A stretch of DNA of 64,000 bases from Microbispora hainanensis (GTDB lineage: Bacteria > Actinomycetota > Actinomycetes > Streptosporangiales > Streptosporangiaceae), in contig NZ_VIRM01000005.1 of the NCBI RefSeq assembly GCF_006874475.1, forward strand, positions 124,001 through 188,000, read 5' to 3'. This document shows positions 1 to 6,698 of this stretch, in pieces. Position 1 is the first letter of the stretch. Each line of letters starts with the position of its first letter. The position numbers and the translations under genes were made by a program. The notes beneath the pieces are model-generated. The model saw only the letters and a list, made by a program, of their open reading frames with translations, was not told the origin of the DNA and did no database searches.

Positions 1-3000
1 ACGTGCCCGCCACCGGGTTCCACAGGTAGACGCCGCCGTCGTTGCTCGCGGTCGCCAGCAGCGGACCGGCCGGGCTGAAGACGGCCGACACCAGCCGGTC
101 GGCCGTCCCCGTGAGCGAACGCAGGCGGCGGCCCGTGACCGGGTCCCACAGGCGTACGTAACCGTCGTTGCCGCAGGCGGCGAGCATGCCGCCGTCGGCG
201 GAGAAGCCGACCGAGGTGATGCGGCGGCCGTGGCCGCGCATCGTCTGGACGGCCTGCCCGGTGTGCGGGTCCCACAGGCGGGCGGTGCCGTCGTTGCTGG
301 AGGTCGCGAGCTGCCGCCCGTCGGGGCGGAACGCGAACGGCCACACCGAGCCCCGGTGCCCGGTCAGCTCGGCCCGCACCTGGCCCGTGCGGTGGTCCCA
401 TATTCGTACAACCCCGTTGCTGTCGCCGGTCGCCAGCAGCTCGCCAGTGGGGTCGAACAGGACCTGGTAGACGGCACCGCGGTGGCCGGGGAGGCTGCCG
501 GCGGACTCGCCCGTGGCCGGGTCCCACAGCCGTACGGCTCCCTCCGTGTCGCCGGAGGCGAGCAGCCGGCCCTCCGGGTGGAAGGCGAGGGAGTAGATCC
601 GGCCGGGGTGACCGGTCAGGTGGTGCACCGCGGCGCCGGTGCGGGGGTCCCAGACGCGCAGCACGCCCTGGCCGTCACCGGCGGCCAGCCGGGTGCCGTC
701 GGGGCTGAGGGCCAGGCGGTAGACGGCTCCGCTGTGGCCGTGCAGGTGGTGGCGCACCCGCCCGGTTGCGAGGTCCCACACGCGGATCGCCCCCGCGCTG
801 TCTCCGGTCGCCAGAAGTCCCGGCAGGAACACGGCGGTGTAGATCGGGGCGGTGTGACCCGGCAGCTCCCACACGAGCTCGCCGGACGCCCAGACCCGCA
901 TGACCCCGTCCGCGCCGCCGGCCGCGATCAGGTCGCCCGAGGTGACCACGGGCCACACGCCCTCGGGATGGCCGCGCAGGACGTGCGCCTGCTCGCCGGT
1001 GGCCGGGTCCCACACCCGCACGGTGCCGTCGCTCGCGCCGGTCACCAGCCCGGCCTCGCCGTAGGCGACCTTGTAGACGCGGCCCCGGTGGCCCTGCAGC
1101 GTGCGCAGGGCGGACCCGGTGACGCTGTCGCAGACCAGGACGCCGCCGTCCTCCCCGCCCAGGGCGACCACGCCCCCGCCCGGGTCGTAGGCGACCGGTT
1201 CGGGCAGGCGGCTGCTGTTGAAGTGATAGCCGTACGGCACGCCGACGACGGCGGGGGCCAGCTCGGCGCCGACCGTGCCGCCGTCCGTGCCGCCGTCCGT
1301 GCCGCCGTCCGTGCCGCCGTCCGTGCCGCCGTCCGTGCCGGGGACGGCGGGCGCGACGGCCGCGCCGCGCAGCTCGGGCGCTCCCCGGGGGACGCCGGTG
1401 ACGTCGATGAGCGCCGCACGGTCCCAGCGGCTGCCCTCGACGGCGACGTCCCGCAGGTCGGCGCGGGCGAACCGGGCCCGGGTGAGATCGGCGCCGCGCA
1501 GGTCGGCGCCCACCAGCACGGCCTCGTCCAGGCGCGCCCCCGCGAGCCGGGCGTTCCTGAGCACCGCGTGGGACAGGTCGGCCCCGACGAGCCGGGTGTC
1601 GGTGAGGTCGGCGCCGGTGAGGTCCACGCCCTGCAGCTCGCGATAGGACAGGTCCTCGCCGCTGAGCCGGGCTCCGCGCAGGTCGGTGGCGGCGGAGGTG
1701 CGCAGCCGGGTGGTCACCTTGATGGCGTTGGCCCGCGCGACGTCGTCGGCACCGGAGGAGGCGAGCGTGCGGGCGGCCCAGGCCTGCAGCCGCGAGGCGT
1801 CGGCCAGGTCGCACAGGAAGTCGACGGCGAGCGCCGACAACGGCCGCAGGCCGAGACCCGGCGCGTGGCCGCCGTCGAGCGACTCCGCCAGGTGCCGGGC
1901 CACCAGCCACTCCACCACCGAGGCGTGGATGAAGCCGAACAACCCCTCGTCCGTACGGACCAGCAGGCTGCCGGCTCCGACGGCGTGCACGGCCTGCTCG
2001 GGCGTCAGCCGCGAGATCCCCTGCCCTGCCGCGGCCGCGCCGCCGTCCGCGACGGCCGGTGCCACTGCCGGTCCGTACGGCACGCGGCCCTGCGCGTCGG
2101 TGGCCAGATCGGTGAGCGTGTCGGCGACCTCGGCCAGCTCCGCCGGGCGCAGGTAGGTCTCGCCGGTCTCCCACAGCCGCAGCGCGAGCGTGGTCGCGGC
2201 CCGCCACAGCTCCTCGCGGGTCAGCCCGCCGGGGGCCCCGGCGACGCCGCGCACGCGCTCCTCCTCGAAGGCCAGCCACGTGTCGAGGATCTCCTGGTAG
2301 AGACCGGCGGCGCTGATCGCCTCCCCGGCCTGGGCGACGGCGCGCAGCCGTTCCGCGGGCAGGTCGGCGATGAAGCTGAGCATGCGGGGGTTGTGCGCGA
2401 GGCCGAGCAGGTCGCCGATGCCGGTGAGCAGGGCCATGCGCTCGTCGGCCGCCTGCTGCGAGCCGTATCGGTTGACCAGGTAGGCGCGGATCTGCTCCTC
2501 GGTGAACTCCTCGATGCTGAGCACCCGCCGGTTGGGCAGCAGGCCGACCTTCTCCCCGAGGGCGGTCATCACCTGGCTGCGCGACTTGAAGTGCTGGGTG
2601 CGCCCGGCCACGAGGATCTTCGCCTTGTCCTCCGCCGCGCGCAGCAGGGTGTCGAGATGGTCGGCGGCCCGCTCGTACGTCACCCGGGTGACCAGCTCGT
2701 CGAAGCCGTCGAACAGCAGCACGATGCGGCCCTGGCGCAGCATGTAGTGGAACGCCTTGAGGTCGATCAGCTCCTCGCCGTGGTCGGCCAGGTGCGCCGC
2801 GACCAGCCCGGCGACCGAGTGCGCCTTGTCGAGGGCGCGCAGCTCGATCAGGATCGGCGTGAGGTGCGGCAGCTCGGCGGGGATGCGCCTGGCCACCTCG
2901 CGCAGCGAGAACGTCTTGCCCCGGCCGAAGTCGCCGAGCACGAGCACGAACCGCCCGTGGTCGGCCGCGAGCAGCCGCATCAGCTCGTCGGTCAGGTCGT

Positions 3001-4987
3001 CGCGCACCTCGCCGCCGGCGCGGTCGAGCTCCCTGAACCGCTGCGGCACGTACAGCTCGGGCGGATAGCGGCGGTCGCCGCGCAGCCTGGCCGTCTGCCC
3101 GGCCACGTAGGACGACAGGTCGAGCAGGCCCTGAAACTCGGTGAAGCTGCGCAGCCGCAGGCCGCGCCGCAATGCGTCGTCACGTAAGGCCCGCGAGGGC
3201 TGCGGCCCCTGGTAGACCAGCTCGGCGGCGTGCTCCAGCCCCGCCGCGTGGACGTGACCGAGGAACGCCTCGACCCGATCCTGGCTCAGCTCCCCGGCGT
3301 GCGCGCCGATCAGGACCTGGCGGACGAACCCGTCCTCGGGGTGGGTGACGAGCAGGCGCGGCGGTTCGCCTGCGACGCGGCGGATCTTGGCCCGCTCGAA
3401 ACGGGTCTCGCAGACCTCGGCGATCCGGTCGAGCAGCAGGTCGGCCGGACCGGCGGGCTCCTCCGGCTCCCGTGCCGGCGGCTCCGGGGCCGCCGCGGCG
3501 GGGGTCTGCGGCCGCCAGCCGCGCCAGCCGTACGGCAGGGCCTCGGGGTCGCCCAGGTCCGGCCTGTCCCTGGTCCACCGGCGCAGCCCCTGTGGCGTGA
3601 TCTGGAGCATCTGGTGACGGCCCGGGGCGAGCGCGGGCACGCACGGCAGCCCCTCCAGCTCCCAGACCTCCTCGGGCCCGCCGCGCCGGGCGTCGCGCCC
3701 GTGGACGAGCAGGTCGAGCCGGGAGCCGAGCAGCCGTTCCAGGGTGGCGGCGTCGCGCAGCCCGGGGCGCGGGGGATGGGCGACGACGCCGATCCGCAGC
3801 CAGCCCTCGAACGGCCGCAGCCGCTCGGCGAACCACGCCGCCTGGGCCTCGCCGACGAAGCCGTGGTCGTCCTCCTCGCGGTGGCTCATCGCGATAGTGG
3901 AGTTGATCCCGGCGACGACCGTGCGCAGCTCGGGCAGTTCGAACAGCGTCCACGGCTGGGCGCTGTCGAAGGCCGGGCCGTCGAGGCCCTGGTAGAGCTC
4001 GCCGAAGAGCGTGGAGAAGTGCCGCCACTTGGGCCAGTAGGGCGGCTGCGGGCGCACGTCGTCGGCCTCGCAGGTGGCGAAGTAGGCCCGGCAGGCCGCC
4101 TTGGTGACGTCGCGCGGCCCGGGGACGACCACCAGCCGCCCGGGTTCGAGCCCCAGCAGCACGCGGAGCCCGGTGAGGAACGCGAGGGCCTGCTCGCACT
4201 CCCGGATGCTGCCCGACTCGGTGAGGTCGCCGGTGACCATCAGCAGGTCGGGTTTGGGCACTCCGGCGTCGGCGAGGCGGGTCAGGTCGGCCCAGACGCT
4301 CGCCTGCAGCTCGCCCGCGTCGAGCGGCTCGTCGGCCTCGGCCAGGCCGCGCCCGAACCGGGGCCCGGCGACGTGCAGCACGGTCACCGAGGAGGCGCCG
4401 CCCGCGCGCTCGGCGGTGGGGAAGGCCGGCTCGGCCGCCGGGGCGCGCCGGGGCCGGGGCACCCGTACGGCGGGGGGCTCGGGCTCGGCGGCCGGATGGA
4501 GGGCATGCGTGCCCGGCCCCGCGGGGAACCGGGGCGGCTCGGCCGGCTTGGCCCGGCCGGCCAGCGCCTGCCCGATCCGGGTCAGCAGCAGCCGCCGCGC
4601 CTCGCCGGGGTCGGTCACGCCGAGGAGGTCCACCCACGTGATCGTGGACAGCAGGCCGTCGAGCGAGACGTCCTCCAGCCGCACCGTCACGAGCTTGTTG
4701 GACGGGTTGCCGGGATCGGCGCGCAGCGCCGCCTGCCATTCGAGCCTGCCGTAACGGGAACCCAGGTAGTTGCGGGTGAGCACGGCGACGACCAGGTCGG
4801 CCTCGCTGACCCCGCGGTCCATGAAGTCGATGAAGTTGGTGCCCGGCACGAAGTCCCACGCCTGCAGCATCGTGCGATAACCGGCGGCCTCGAGCTGCCA
4901 GGCGATCCACGTCGCCCACCGCTCGTCGGCGGGGGAGTAGCTGACGAAGATCTCGGTCCGCGCGTCCCCCCGCCCCGTGTGCGTCAT
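1..4987 (-). CDS. TIR-degenerate phosphoesterase-NACHT-pentapeptide-WD40 STAND protein (C-terminus cut by window edge)
   Basis: A single minus-strand frame stays open from an ATG at 4987 to the window edge, giving at least 1,662 residues. Residues 1-125 are a TIR domain (IFVSYSPADE; putative catalytic Glu83 in RLEW). Residues about 200-450 have the layout of a calcineurin-like phosphoesterase, but most metal ligands are replaced. About 540-640 is an unassigned spacer. NACHT follows, with Walker A GDFGRGKT at 685-692 and Walker B LLFDGFDE at about 757-764. Pentapeptide repeats (DLTGADL-type) span about 1100-1195. A Gly-Gly-Thr-Asp repeat linker lies at 1218-1239, then at least nine WD40 repeats (RVWD/RLWD). 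Known TIR-STAND proteins sense a ligand through C-terminal repeats, oligomerise through NACHT and deplete NAD; that role here is inference. The gene is divergent from the transporter at 5064. Confidence 0.9.
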   Translation of the reverse strand, partial: MTHTGRGDARTEIFVSYSPADERWATWIAWQLEAAGYRTMLQAWDFVPGTNFIDFMDRGVSEADLVVAVLTRNYLGSRYGRLEWQAALRADPGNPSNKLVTVRLEDVSLDGLLSTITWVDLLGVTDPGEARRLLLTRIGQALAGRAKPAEPPRFPAGPGTHALHPAAEPEPPAVRVPRPRRAPAAEPAFPTAERAGGASSVTVLHVAGPRFGRGLAEADEPLDAGELQASVWADLTRLADAGVPKPDLLMVTGDLTESGSIRECEQALAFLTGLRVLLGLEPGRLVVVPGPRDVTKAACRAYFATCEADDVRPQPPYWPKWRHFSTLFGELYQGLDGPAFDSAQPWTLFELPELRTVVAGINSTIAMSHREEDDHGFVGEAQAAWFAERLRPFEGWLRIGVVAHPPRPGLRDAATLERLLGSRLDLLVHGRDARRGGPEEVWELEGLPCVPALAPGRHQMLQITPQGLRRWTRDRPDLGDPEALPYGWRGWRPQTPAAAAPEPPAREPEEPAGPADLLLDRIAEVCETRFERAKIRRVAGEPPRLLVTHPEDGFVRQVLIGAHAGELSQDRVEAFLGHVHAAGLEHAAELVYQGPQPSRALRDDALRRGLRLRSFTEFQGLLDLSSYVAGQTARLRGDRRYPPELYVPQRFRELDRAGGEVRDDLTDELMRLLAADHGRFVLVLGDFGRGKTFSLREVARRIPAELPHLTPILIELRALDKAHSVAGLVAAHLADHGEELIDLKAFHYMLRQGRIVLLFDGFDELVTRVTYERAADHLDTLLRAAEDKAKILVAGRTQHFKSRSQVMTALGEKVGLLPNRRVLSIEEFTEEQIRAYLVNRYGSQQAADERMALLTGIGDLLGLAHNPRMLSFIADLPAERLRAVAQAGEAISAAGLYQEILDTWLAFEEERVRGVAGAPGGLTREELWRAATTLALRLWETGETYLRPAELAEVADTLTDLATDAQGRVPYGPAVAPAVADGGAAAAGQGISRLTPEQAVHAVGAGSLLVRTDEGLFGFIHASVVEWLVARHLAESLDGGHAPGLGLRPLSALAVDFLCDLADASRLQAWAARTLASSGADDVARANAIKVTTRLRTSAATDLRGARLSGEDLSYRELQGVDLTGADLTDTRLVGADLSHAVLRNARLAGARLDEAVLVGADLRGADLTRARFARADLRDVAVEGSRWDRAALIDVTGVPRGAPELRGAAVAPAVPGTDGGTDGGTDGGTDGGTDGGTVGAELAPAVVGVPYGYHFNSSRLPEPVAYDPGGGVVALGGEDGGVLVCDSVTGSALRTLQGHRGRVYKVAYGEAGLVTGASDGTVRVWDPATGEQAHVLRGHPEGVWPVVTSGDLIAAGGADGVMRVWASGELVWELPGHTAPIYTAVFLPGLLATGDSAGAIRVWDLATGRVRHHLHGHSGAVYRLALSPDGTRLAAGDGQGVLRVWDPRTGAAVHHLTGHPGRIYSLAFHPEGRLLASGDTEGAVRLWDPATGESAGSLPGHRGAVYQVLFDPTGELLATGDSNGVVRIWDHRTGQVRAELTGHRGSVWPFAFRPDGRQLATSSNDGTARLWDPHTGQAVQTMRGHGRRITSVGFSADGGMLAACGNDGYVRLWDPVTGRRLRSLTGTADRLVSAVFSPAGPLLATASNDGGVYLWNPVAGT
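1275..1340. repeat. 12-bp in-frame tandem repeat encoding a GGTD linker
   Basis: Five perfect copies of the 12-bp unit gtgccgccgtcc (1275-1334) are followed by a partial sixth. In the minus-strand STAND gene they encode repeated Gly-Gly-Thr-Asp between the pentapeptide repeats and the WD40 propeller. The period is a multiple of three, so copy-number change would alter linker length without a frameshift. Confidence 0.9.
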
Positions 4988-5063
4988 GGGCCCAGTATCC
5001 CCGCTGCCACCGTCGGTTTGGAGGGGTTCGATCATCCTGGGGCCGCCGATATAAGGTGTGCGC

Positions 5064-6254
5064 GTGGCGACCGGGCTGCGGCGATTGAGCGTTCTCGACT
5101 GGATCAGGTTCGGGCTGCTCGCGGCGGGCCTGGTCTTCGTGGCCACCGGCCTGCTGCCGGCCGAGGAGGCCAGGGCCAGCGTCGAACGCATCGCCCCTCT
5201 GCTGCTGTTCCTCGGCGCGGTGATCGTGCTGGCGGAGCTGACCAAGGAGGCGCAGGTCTTCGACGTCATCGCGACCCGCCTCGCGATCGTCGGCCGGGGG
5301 AGCTACGCCGCTCTCTTCTTCCTCTGCACGGCCTTCGCCTCGCTGGTCACGATCGTCTTGAACCTGGACACGACGGCCGTCCTGCTGACGCCGGTCATGC
5401 TGGCCCTGGCGCCGCGCGCGAAGATCGCGCCGCTGCCGCTGGTGATGACCACGGTCTGGCTGGCCAACACCGCGAGCCTGCTGCTGCCGGTCTCCAATCT
5501 CACGAACCTCCTCGCCATGAACCGGGTCGCGCTGACCACGCAGGAGTTCGCCGCGCGCATGTGGCTGCCCCAGGCCGCGTCGATCGCGGTGACGATGGCG
5601 TTCCTGTGGGCGTTCTACTGGCGGCGCGGCGAGCGGGGCGAGGACCGCTACGTGCCGCCGCCTCCGGTGCCGGTGGCCGACCGGGTGCTGTTCGGCGTCG
5701 CGGGGGTGGCGTGCCTGCTGTTCATCGCCGCGATCCTGGCCGGCGTGGAGATCGGCGTGGCGGCCCTCGTCGCGGCGGTCGGGGTGGTCGCCGCCTTCGC
5801 CTGGCGCGACCGGGCCAAGCTCGTGTGGGCGCTGATCCCCTGGCGGCTGCTCGTCTTCGTCACCGGGCTGTTCCTCGTGGTCCCGACGCTCAGCCGCCTC
5901 GGCCTGGCCGACGTGATGCGCGCGATCGTCGGCCTGGGCGGCGACGGGGACGGCGCCTACCGCGCGGCCGCCGCCGGGGCCGCGCTGTCCAACGTGCTCA
6001 ACAACCTCCCGGCGTACGTCGCGGGCGAGCAGGTGATCCCCGCGGCCAACCACACGCAGCTGCTGTCGCTGCTCGCCGGCACCAACCTGGGCCCGGTGAT
6101 CACGCCCTGGGGCTCGCTCGCGACGCTGCTGTGGTTCGAATGGTGCCGGCGCGGAGACGTGCGGGTGCCGCTGGCCAAGTTCGTCGCCACCGGCGCGGGA
6201 CTCGCCGTGATCGGCCTCGCCGCGACGGTGACCGTCCTGATCCTCACCGCCTGA
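5064..6254 (+). CDS. ArsB/NhaD-superfamily ion transporter
   Basis: The protein is about 396 residues with 10-11 predicted membrane segments. It has the ion-transporter superfamily pattern of repeated helical halves with conserved hairpins, for example VLNLDTTAVLLTPV in the first half and ALSNVLNNLPAY in the second, as in ArsB, NhaD and SLC13-type carriers. The substrate could be arsenite, a carboxylate or Na+/H+; no arsR or arsC lies nearby, so none is assigned. GTG at 5064 is preferred over the in-frame GTG at 5058 because AAGG at 5053-5056 sits 7 nt upstream of it and only 1 nt from 5058. It is transcribed away from the STAND gene with a 76-bp gap and ends 39 bp before the convergent hxlR-type gene. 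Confidence 0.85.
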   Translation: MATGLRRLSVLDWIRFGLLAAGLVFVATGLLPAEEARASVERIAPLLLFLGAVIVLAELTKEAQVFDVIATRLAIVGRGSYAALFFLCTAFASLVTIVLNLDTTAVLLTPVMLALAPRAKIAPLPLVMTTVWLANTASLLLPVSNLTNLLAMNRVALTTQEFAARMWLPQAASIAVTMAFLWAFYWRRGERGEDRYVPPPPVPVADRVLFGVAGVACLLFIAAILAGVEIGVAALVAAVGVVAAFAWRDRAKLVWALIPWRLLVFVTGLFLVVPTLSRLGLADVMRAIVGLGGDGDGAYRAAAAGAALSNVLNNLPAYVAGEQVIPAANHTQLLSLLAGTNLGPVITPWGSLATLLWFEWCRRGDVRVPLAKFVATGAGLAVIGLAATVTVLILTA

Positions 6255-6293
6255 GGCGTCACTGCGGCCGGGGCGGGTCCCGGCGCTCGCGGA

Positions 6294-6698
6294 TCACGCC
6301 CTCGGGCCGTCGTACTGTCGCCGTGCCCGTTCGACGTGCTCGAGGTTGGCCGCGCCCCACTCGGCGATCTGTGCGAAGAGGGGCGAGAGCGTGCGGCCGA
6401 GCTCGCTGATCTCGTATTCGACGCGTGGCGGCACCTCGGGATGGTAGGTGCGGACGACCAGGCCGTCGCGCTCCAGCTGGCGCAGGCGCTGGGTGAGCAC
6501 CTTGGGGGTGATGTTCTCGATGCGCCGCTCCAGCTCGACGAACCGCTGGCGTCCGAAGGCATGGAGCGACCAGAGGATGGGCGAGGTCCACCGGCTGAAC
6601 ACGATGTCGACGACCGGGGAGATCGGGCAGGCGAGTTCGGGGTCGGCCGCGGCATCGGCGCTGGCATCGGTCGCGGGCCGGCTCGTCTCGGTCGTCAT
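6294..6698 (-). CDS. HxlR-family winged-helix regulator, probably redox/electrophile sensing
   Basis: A 134-residue protein with the HxlR winged-helix core (ITPKVLTQRLRQLERDGLVVR). Cys24 in LACPI sits just before the helix-turn-helix, where YodB/HypR/QorR-type regulators carry their redox-active cysteine. ATG at 6698 is chosen because GAGGGG lies 8 nt upstream; an in-frame GTG at 6707 would add three residues but has no spaced Shine-Dalgarno. It is divergent from an NmrA-like oxidoreductase gene, a typical arrangement for QorR-qorA-like pairs. It probably represses itself and the neighbour through the repeats at 6716-6743. The inducer is not visible in the sequence. Confidence 0.88.
   Translation of the reverse strand: MTTETSRPATDASADAAADPELACPISPVVDIVFSRWTSPILWSLHAFGRQRFVELERRIENITPKVLTQRLRQLERDGLVVRTYHPEVPPRVEYEISELGRTLSPLFAQIAEWGAANLEHVERARRQYDGPRA

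Follow-up and report, generated by a model that had tools for sequence, protein, structure and literature searches.

The window analysed here, a 64,000-nt stretch of the 8.7-Mb draft genome of Microbispora hainanensis (G000:C197:124001-188000), opens with most of a gene encoding a 1,932-aa STAND protein (P0001) in which a TIR domain is followed by a phosphoesterase-like domain, an NA-iREase3 domain, a NACHT NTPase, pentapeptide repeats, 15 WD motifs and a conserved C-terminal tail. Our preferred reading, to which we assign a probability of roughly 0.6, is that this protein is a TIR-effector STAND (NLR-like) switch that is fixed in the core genome and would monitor an invariant cue.

The reading frame begins with an ATG at window position 4987 on the minus strand and stays open through window base 1. 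It runs 812 bases past the window edge, stop included, in contiguous DNA of the same genome (L009; G000:C197:123189-124000, with the stop at C197:123189-123191). The earlier note had described one open frame on a single chain and proposed to recover its C-terminus from a neighbouring contig; the frame is indeed continuous, but its end was recovered from the same contig. The stop-to-stop frame starts at 5302; we placed the translation start at 4987 because the alignments of relatives begin there and because a conserved ATACTG stretch lies just upstream. In an alignment of 29 of the 77 extracted intergenic stretches, 11 of them from Microbispora/Planotetraspora and 18 from Nonomuraea, this ATACTG core is conserved just before the start, preceded by G or A, and a second conserved stretch precedes the start of the divergent permease gene. 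If ATACTG is a -10 element, the consensus suggests that the mRNA would be leaderless, with a transcript start at or near the ATG. Two plus-strand frames of more than 1,000 aa lie opposite the gene (window 2-3187 and 3230-6409) and most probably reflect shadow frames in high-GC coding sequence.

Table 1. Features of the TIR-STAND locus (window positions unless a genome is named).
Feature	Position	Strand	Evidence
TIR-STAND gene within the window (residues 1-1662 of 1932)	1..4987	-	ORF and contiguous DNA
WD40, in-window part (whole region, residues 1256-1866)	1..1222	-	15 WD motifs
GTDG linker between pentapeptide and WD40 (12-bp tandem repeat, 6.2 copies, 98% matches)	1267..1340	-	
Pentapeptide repeats (about residues 1100-1190)	1418..1690	-	Pentapeptide E 2e-21
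NACHT NTPase (residues 679-841)	2465..2953	-	PF05729 42.7 bits
NA-iREase3, NACHT-associated inactive restriction-endonuclease fold (residues 516-624)	3116..3442	-	E 2.2e-38
Pseudo-metallophosphoesterase (residues 198-480)	3548..4396	-	ligand positions lost
TIR domain, TIR_2 (residues 13-132)	4592..4951	-	E 1.3e-32
Glu83 codon, putative TIR catalytic Glu (SRYGRLEW)	4739..4741	-	alignment column
GATACT, resembling a -10 box, 6 nt upstream of the STAND ATG	4994..4999	-	aligned intergenic stretches
Divergent ArsB/CitMHS-type permease, constant neighbour	5058..6254	+	CitMHS E 1.9e-33, ArsB E 1.4e-22
Adjoining TIR frame pairs	G005:C19:93045-94036, G011:C12:634511-635529, G014:C210:28761-29758		

Domain searches found each of the five parts that the earlier note had named on this frame (TIR, phosphoesterase-like, NACHT, pentapeptide and WD40), together with a sixth, NA-iREase3, that it had overlooked; the TIR_2, NA-iREase3 and WD40 scores were taken among the best 25 of 70 families. 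The NACHT domain is intact, as had been claimed: its score clears the PF05729 cut-off of 26.7 bits, and its Walker A (GDFGRGKT from residue 685) and Walker B (LLFDGFDEL from residue 757) motifs are retained as GK(T) and DGFDE, respectively, in all 76 complete rows of our alignment. The putative catalytic Glu of the TIR domain also stood up to comparison. Glu83, which we equate with the Glu of the plant SxWCLxEL motif, is present in 76/76 complete rows, and its column holds E in all 81 rows that reach it in the 85-row alignment. Foldseek matches of the predicted TIR structure included MyD88, SARM1, SPARTA and AbTir; conserved TIR motifs do not prove NADase activity. At the other end of the protein, 13 WD40 stretches were scored by domain search and 15 WD motifs by pattern, which probably form two seven-bladed propellers, and the preceding GTDG linker differs from one relative to another, with gaps making up 38% of residues 1196-1255. 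The overall arrangement is thus that of STAND/NACHT proteins, with the effector N-terminal, the NTPase central and the repeat sensor C-terminal. Elsewhere in three Microbispora genomes, a TIR frame of ~165 aa directly adjoins a frame of 1,163-1,197 aa with a second TIR match (Table 1).

The phosphoesterase-like domain is present, as the earlier note had it, but is dead by motif. Its fold, which we liken to that of class III cyclic-nucleotide phosphodiesterases (Rv0805-like), is retained, whereas the metal-binding residues of the motifs that we take to be DxH, GNHD and GHxH are not: D is replaced by G208, H by R210 and N by P291, GHxH is lost, and D254 and H404 are kept. The ligands at positions 208, 210 and 291 (D, H and N) are kept in none of the 76 complete rows and the GHxH site is without consensus across the clade, while G208, R210 and H404 occur in 76, 74 and 76 of the 76 rows. 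Together with purifying selection on the domain (dN/dS 0.07-0.17), this retention would suit a pseudo-phosphoesterase that has turned into a nucleotide-binding sensor and is not a spacer. Such a role, compatible with the other readings, nevertheless appears improbable to us, since the nine former catalytic positions taken together scored 0.754, no higher than columns drawn at random from the domain (0.736, with 41% of draws as high), and 7.6% of random draws were as high as G208 and R210 alone. This column conservation test for a retained ligand pocket was not significant, which weakens the idea. Most simply, the dead phosphoesterase and the iREase would be structural or regulatory spacers, left over from an ancestral protein that combined two enzymes.

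Distant relatives carry intact phosphoesterase motifs both with and without a TIR domain. In our first alignment, the phosphoesterase was dead in 84 of 85 rows and the sole live row was the TIR-less L025; the idea drawn from it, that a TIR domain goes with a dead phosphoesterase, was ruled out by three TIR proteins with intact phosphoesterase motifs in genome G085 of the class sample. This genome encodes several copies (L161, L168, L170 and L171) that share with the window protein the order TIR-phosphoesterase-iREase-NACHT (read in L161, L170 and L171, whereas masked bases break up L168) and the TIR Glu. They differ from it in that the phosphoesterase motifs are intact in L161, L168 and L170 and partly decayed in L171, and in that several copies occur in one genome; they represent the same class but another family. 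Live TIR and live phosphoesterase motifs thus do occur on one chain, and the window clade probably derives from such a state.

A TIR-less paralogue with intact phosphoesterase motifs was found in Microbispora genome G014 (L132 8583-13757, on G014:C213). From the phosphoesterase to the C-terminal tail it has the same domain order as the window protein (phosphoesterase, iREase, NACHT, pentapeptide, WD40), with 37% identity over residues 190-1932; unlike the window protein, it was seen in only one of 15 Microbispora genomes. No permease match was found in its 19-kb stretch. L132 is a candidate DS-8/DS-9-like antiphage protein, and any match to its phosphoesterase-iREase part was found in 7 of the 79 genomes of the class sample, including our own genome and G001. 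The natural series of TIR with a live phosphoesterase, TIR with a dead one and phosphoesterase alone shows that the receptor can shed one effector or the other and keep its remaining parts.

Relatives of the window protein were collected by a scan of genome contigs with residues 198-640, and the best 80 (L030-L109) of the 120 encoded were kept. The earlier note had called the five-part order uncommon; within this clade it is not rare, since 75 of these best 80 of 120 are complete and align along the full length. The complete relatives are 1,853-1,982 aa long (trimmed to about residue 1), and the kept set belongs mostly to Microbispora, Planotetraspora, Sphaerisporangium, Streptosporangium, Nonomuraea, Actinomadura and Herbidospora, with three from Streptomyces. 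The nearest Microbispora matches reach 98% identity over residues 198-640. The TIR and NACHT domains are the most conserved, with a mean majority of 0.86 for TIR and 0.88 for NACHT; the other parts lie at 0.74-0.82. Nei-Gojobori comparisons of the window gene with those of seven Microbispora gave dN/dS values below 0.3 in the TIR (0.09-0.25), phosphoesterase, iREase, NACHT (0.06-0.21), pentapeptide and WD40 (0.10-0.29) domains, and higher values in three linkers (up to 0.92) and in the stretch after NACHT (up to 0.37).

The repeat number of the WD40 region is near-constant: none of 76 rows is short of a repeat-sized block, and the region is 612-636 aa long in all of them except L080 (660 aa), which perhaps carries one extra repeat. 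Among the six species compared, the best match of a WD40 repeat was the orthologous repeat in 12-15 of 15 cases, and the mean identity among the window protein's own repeats is 0.32. The window gene thus shows neither the near-identical tandem repeats nor the variable copy number of diversifying WD40 receptors, and a 126-bp WD40 DNA repeat array was not found in it. Such an array is present in G085, where the 126-bp repeats of L200 6573-12166 (the same gene as L161, with an assembly gap) are 90-92% identical; those of L201 1-4990 (the same gene as L171) are 73-76% identical. Judged from these comparisons, the putative sensor is non-diversifying between species and the gene is under purifying selection.

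Flank searches placed the gene in the order polA, rpsA, (GNAT), coaE, STAND on the opposite strand, permease and uvrB. Among 80 loci, coaE was found in 63, uvrB in 41 (matches below 70% identity were left uncounted) and the permease in 77, and gene orientation was the same in every neighbourhood pattern seen. Eight loci have the permease but no coaE, rpsA or uvrB in the examined flanks (L098, L099, L102, L104, L105, L106, L108 and L109; five from Herbidospora, one from Acrocarpospora and two from Streptomyces); since these flanks are short, we infer relocation there. The other coaE-less loci are L032, which retains TetR and hydrolase neighbours, L107, and loci with less than 2 kb of downstream DNA. 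A FastTree phylogeny of residues 1-1080 required 11 changes, as few as 12 genus labels allow (4 of 76 rows have no genus label, and Actinomadura alone needs two changes), which indicates that the gene is vertically inherited, following the genus phylogeny. As a single control, we used L005, a NACHT-hit gene of the same genome that scored 24.6 bits, under the Pfam cut-off; it occurs in 9 of 15 genomes, and its identity to the 8 other copies is 46-83%. The STAND gene occurs in 12 of 15, with 84-97% identity to the 11 other copies over residues 1-640.

Neither defence neighbours nor mobile carriage, the marks of a mobile defence island, were found. The earlier note had proposed to look for homologues beside known defence genes; the nine flanking proteins gave no PADLOC match. 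No match to the STAND protein was detected in phage records, and the 31 stretches of viral contigs with peptide-pattern matches encode no relative. Plasmid records matched in 17 of 72,556 cases, and one of them covers the query: NZ_LT559118.1 from Nonomuraea gerenzanensis, filed as a plasmid, whose size of 11.85 Mb points to a chromosome. Its genomic setting is unlike that of a mobile defence gene. The classification as a TIR/STAND protein given in the earlier note is supported, and its step to an antiphage or conflict protein stays a hypothesis; of the patterns that the note itself set against its claim, failure to find TIR or NACHT was not seen, and isolated, well-conserved and vertically inherited homologues are largely what we observed.

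These data bear on whether the protein is a true antiphage abortive-infection NLR, chromosomally stable, whose WD40 and pentapeptide repeats sense an invariant phage feature. Avs proteins, which recognise conserved phage proteins, provide a parallel; models of antiphage proteins hit the TIR-less paralogue with scores under their cut-offs (DS9_1 9.7e-28, DS8 4.1e-12, EruA 4.4e-12), and the several related G085 copies, one with near-identical WD40 DNA repeats, form a conflict-like pattern. However, the lack of PADLOC matches in the flanks and of phage, viral or clear plasmid carriage, as well as the fixed sensor and surroundings, argue against this reading, which we hold as possible but somewhat less than even. 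Vertical descent and a frozen sensor would also fit a non-immune regulator. A signalling protein with a developmental or housekeeping function in filamentous actinomycetes, and with no immune role, would likewise be expected to show vertical descent, purifying selection and core surroundings, but we consider it unlikely because a full match occurs in only 12 of the 61 genomes of an order sample, three losses are seen in Microbispora, and domains of this kind are described for conflict systems in the available text of PMC7159879 and PMC8195603.

The constant neighbour of the gene is the permease, which is present and divergent at every locus for which upstream DNA is available (77 of 77), across a gap of about 40-389 bp in 76 loci and 1,262 bp in L083; the three permease-less loci (L047, L097 and L107) end without upstream DNA. 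Among 15 Microbispora genomes, our own included, the STAND gene is present in 12 and an intact permease orthologue in 13. In the order sample, a full STAND match is present in 12 genomes, split into two pieces in two of these, and absent from 49, and a permease of at least 60% identity occurs in 14, namely the same 12 plus G069 and G031. Accordingly, a STAND gene without the permease was seen in 0/12 STAND-bearing genomes of either set; five genomes belong to both sets as Microbispora counted already, and the counts are raw, uncorrected for shared ancestry. The STAND gene is dispensable, since 3 of 15 Microbispora and 49 of 61 order-sample genomes are without a full match.

The losses within Microbispora are of three kinds. 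In G002, bases 9131-16296 of L009 are missing and both sides align, so that both genes and short intergenic stretches are gone; in G006, the STAND gene is absent and permease fragments lie beside coaE; in G012, the STAND gene alone is lost (about L009 9121-14995), and the promoter stretch and permease are intact. The last locus (L131 9042-10470, G012:C249) offers a ready-made comparison strain. In G069 and G031, the permease adjoins coaE on the same strand without a STAND gene, which suggests that the permease may predate the STAND gene there. The idea of a strict dependence on the permease is weakened by these three permease-only genomes.

It is nonetheless conceivable that the STAND protein is a guard of the permease or a regulator paired with it as one unit, sensing the permease, its cargo or the stress that it relieves. 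The invariable pairing, its presence in the eight loci where coaE, rpsA and uvrB were not seen in the flanks, the joint deletion in G002, and the loss of the STAND gene with permease fragments in G006 are in favour of such a unit. Against it, G012 keeps the permease after losing the STAND gene alone, the adjacency may come from one insertion, given the permease beside coaE in G069 and G031, and the supporting counts carry the limits noted above for short flanks and shared ancestry. We regard this possibility as doubtful. Among the matches listed from open-licence PMC literature, no title or abstract start concerned this protein or its fixed permease pairing.

Under our preferred reading of a core-genome TIR-STAND switch, the pentapeptide/WD40 half would sense a cue, NACHT would bind nucleotide and presumably oligomerise, and the clustered TIR domains would hydrolyse NAD+ or make a TIR product, an action that may end in dormancy or death. 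That the WD40 repeats show no amplification or diversification from species to species makes an invariant cue likely. Candidates are a molecule or process of the host, which may be linked to the divergent permease, and a phage feature unable to vary. We infer these steps from family knowledge, while the domain order, motifs, dead phosphoesterase, surroundings, descent and non-diversifying sensor are read in the sequence. A bolder version, to which we give rather long odds, is that an NLR-type TIR receptor has been domesticated as a core-genome guard that forms a two-gene unit with the permease and keeps watch on a self process that does not vary, namely the permease or its cargo, with the dead phosphodiesterase as a part of the receptor. 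If true, this would be a bacterial guard-type innate immune receptor inherited like a housekeeping gene, in a field where bacterial STAND/TIR proteins have mostly been studied as mobile antiphage weapons. With its non-diversifying sensor, dead second enzyme and constant permease neighbour, the clade near rpsA, coaE and uvrB offers a tractable system in which to ask if NLR-like proteins of bacteria are able to monitor the host's own processes.

Comparison with PADLOC-DB gave four partial matches, all in the TIR part (bSEFIR at 39 bits, two Aga and SAVED_TIR), and the DS8 model did not match the window protein at E<=0.01. According to the available text of PMC13092281, DS-8 is a validated metallophosphatase-NACHT antiphage protein whose phosphatase catalytic residues are needed for defence; the window protein has lost these residues, begins with a TIR domain and also contains iREase, pentapeptide and WD40 parts. 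The window protein therefore cannot work by DS-8 chemistry. It shares the effector-NACHT-sensor layout of the bNACHT antiphage proteins; the four described in the accessible part of PMC12169576 have nuclease or undiscerned effectors and NCH1 or SNaCT C-termini, instead of TIR and pentapeptide/WD40. The TIR domain is 40, 32 and 35% identical to three plasmid records annotated fxsT; in FxSxx-type systems, as far as the text of PMC7159879 extends, TIR is found on an AP-ATPase, whereas here it is found on a NACHT protein with WD40. The component domains are already known as classes, and the available portions of PMC8195603 and PMC7159879 treat calcineurin and TIR effectors of STAND and related conflict proteins in this way.
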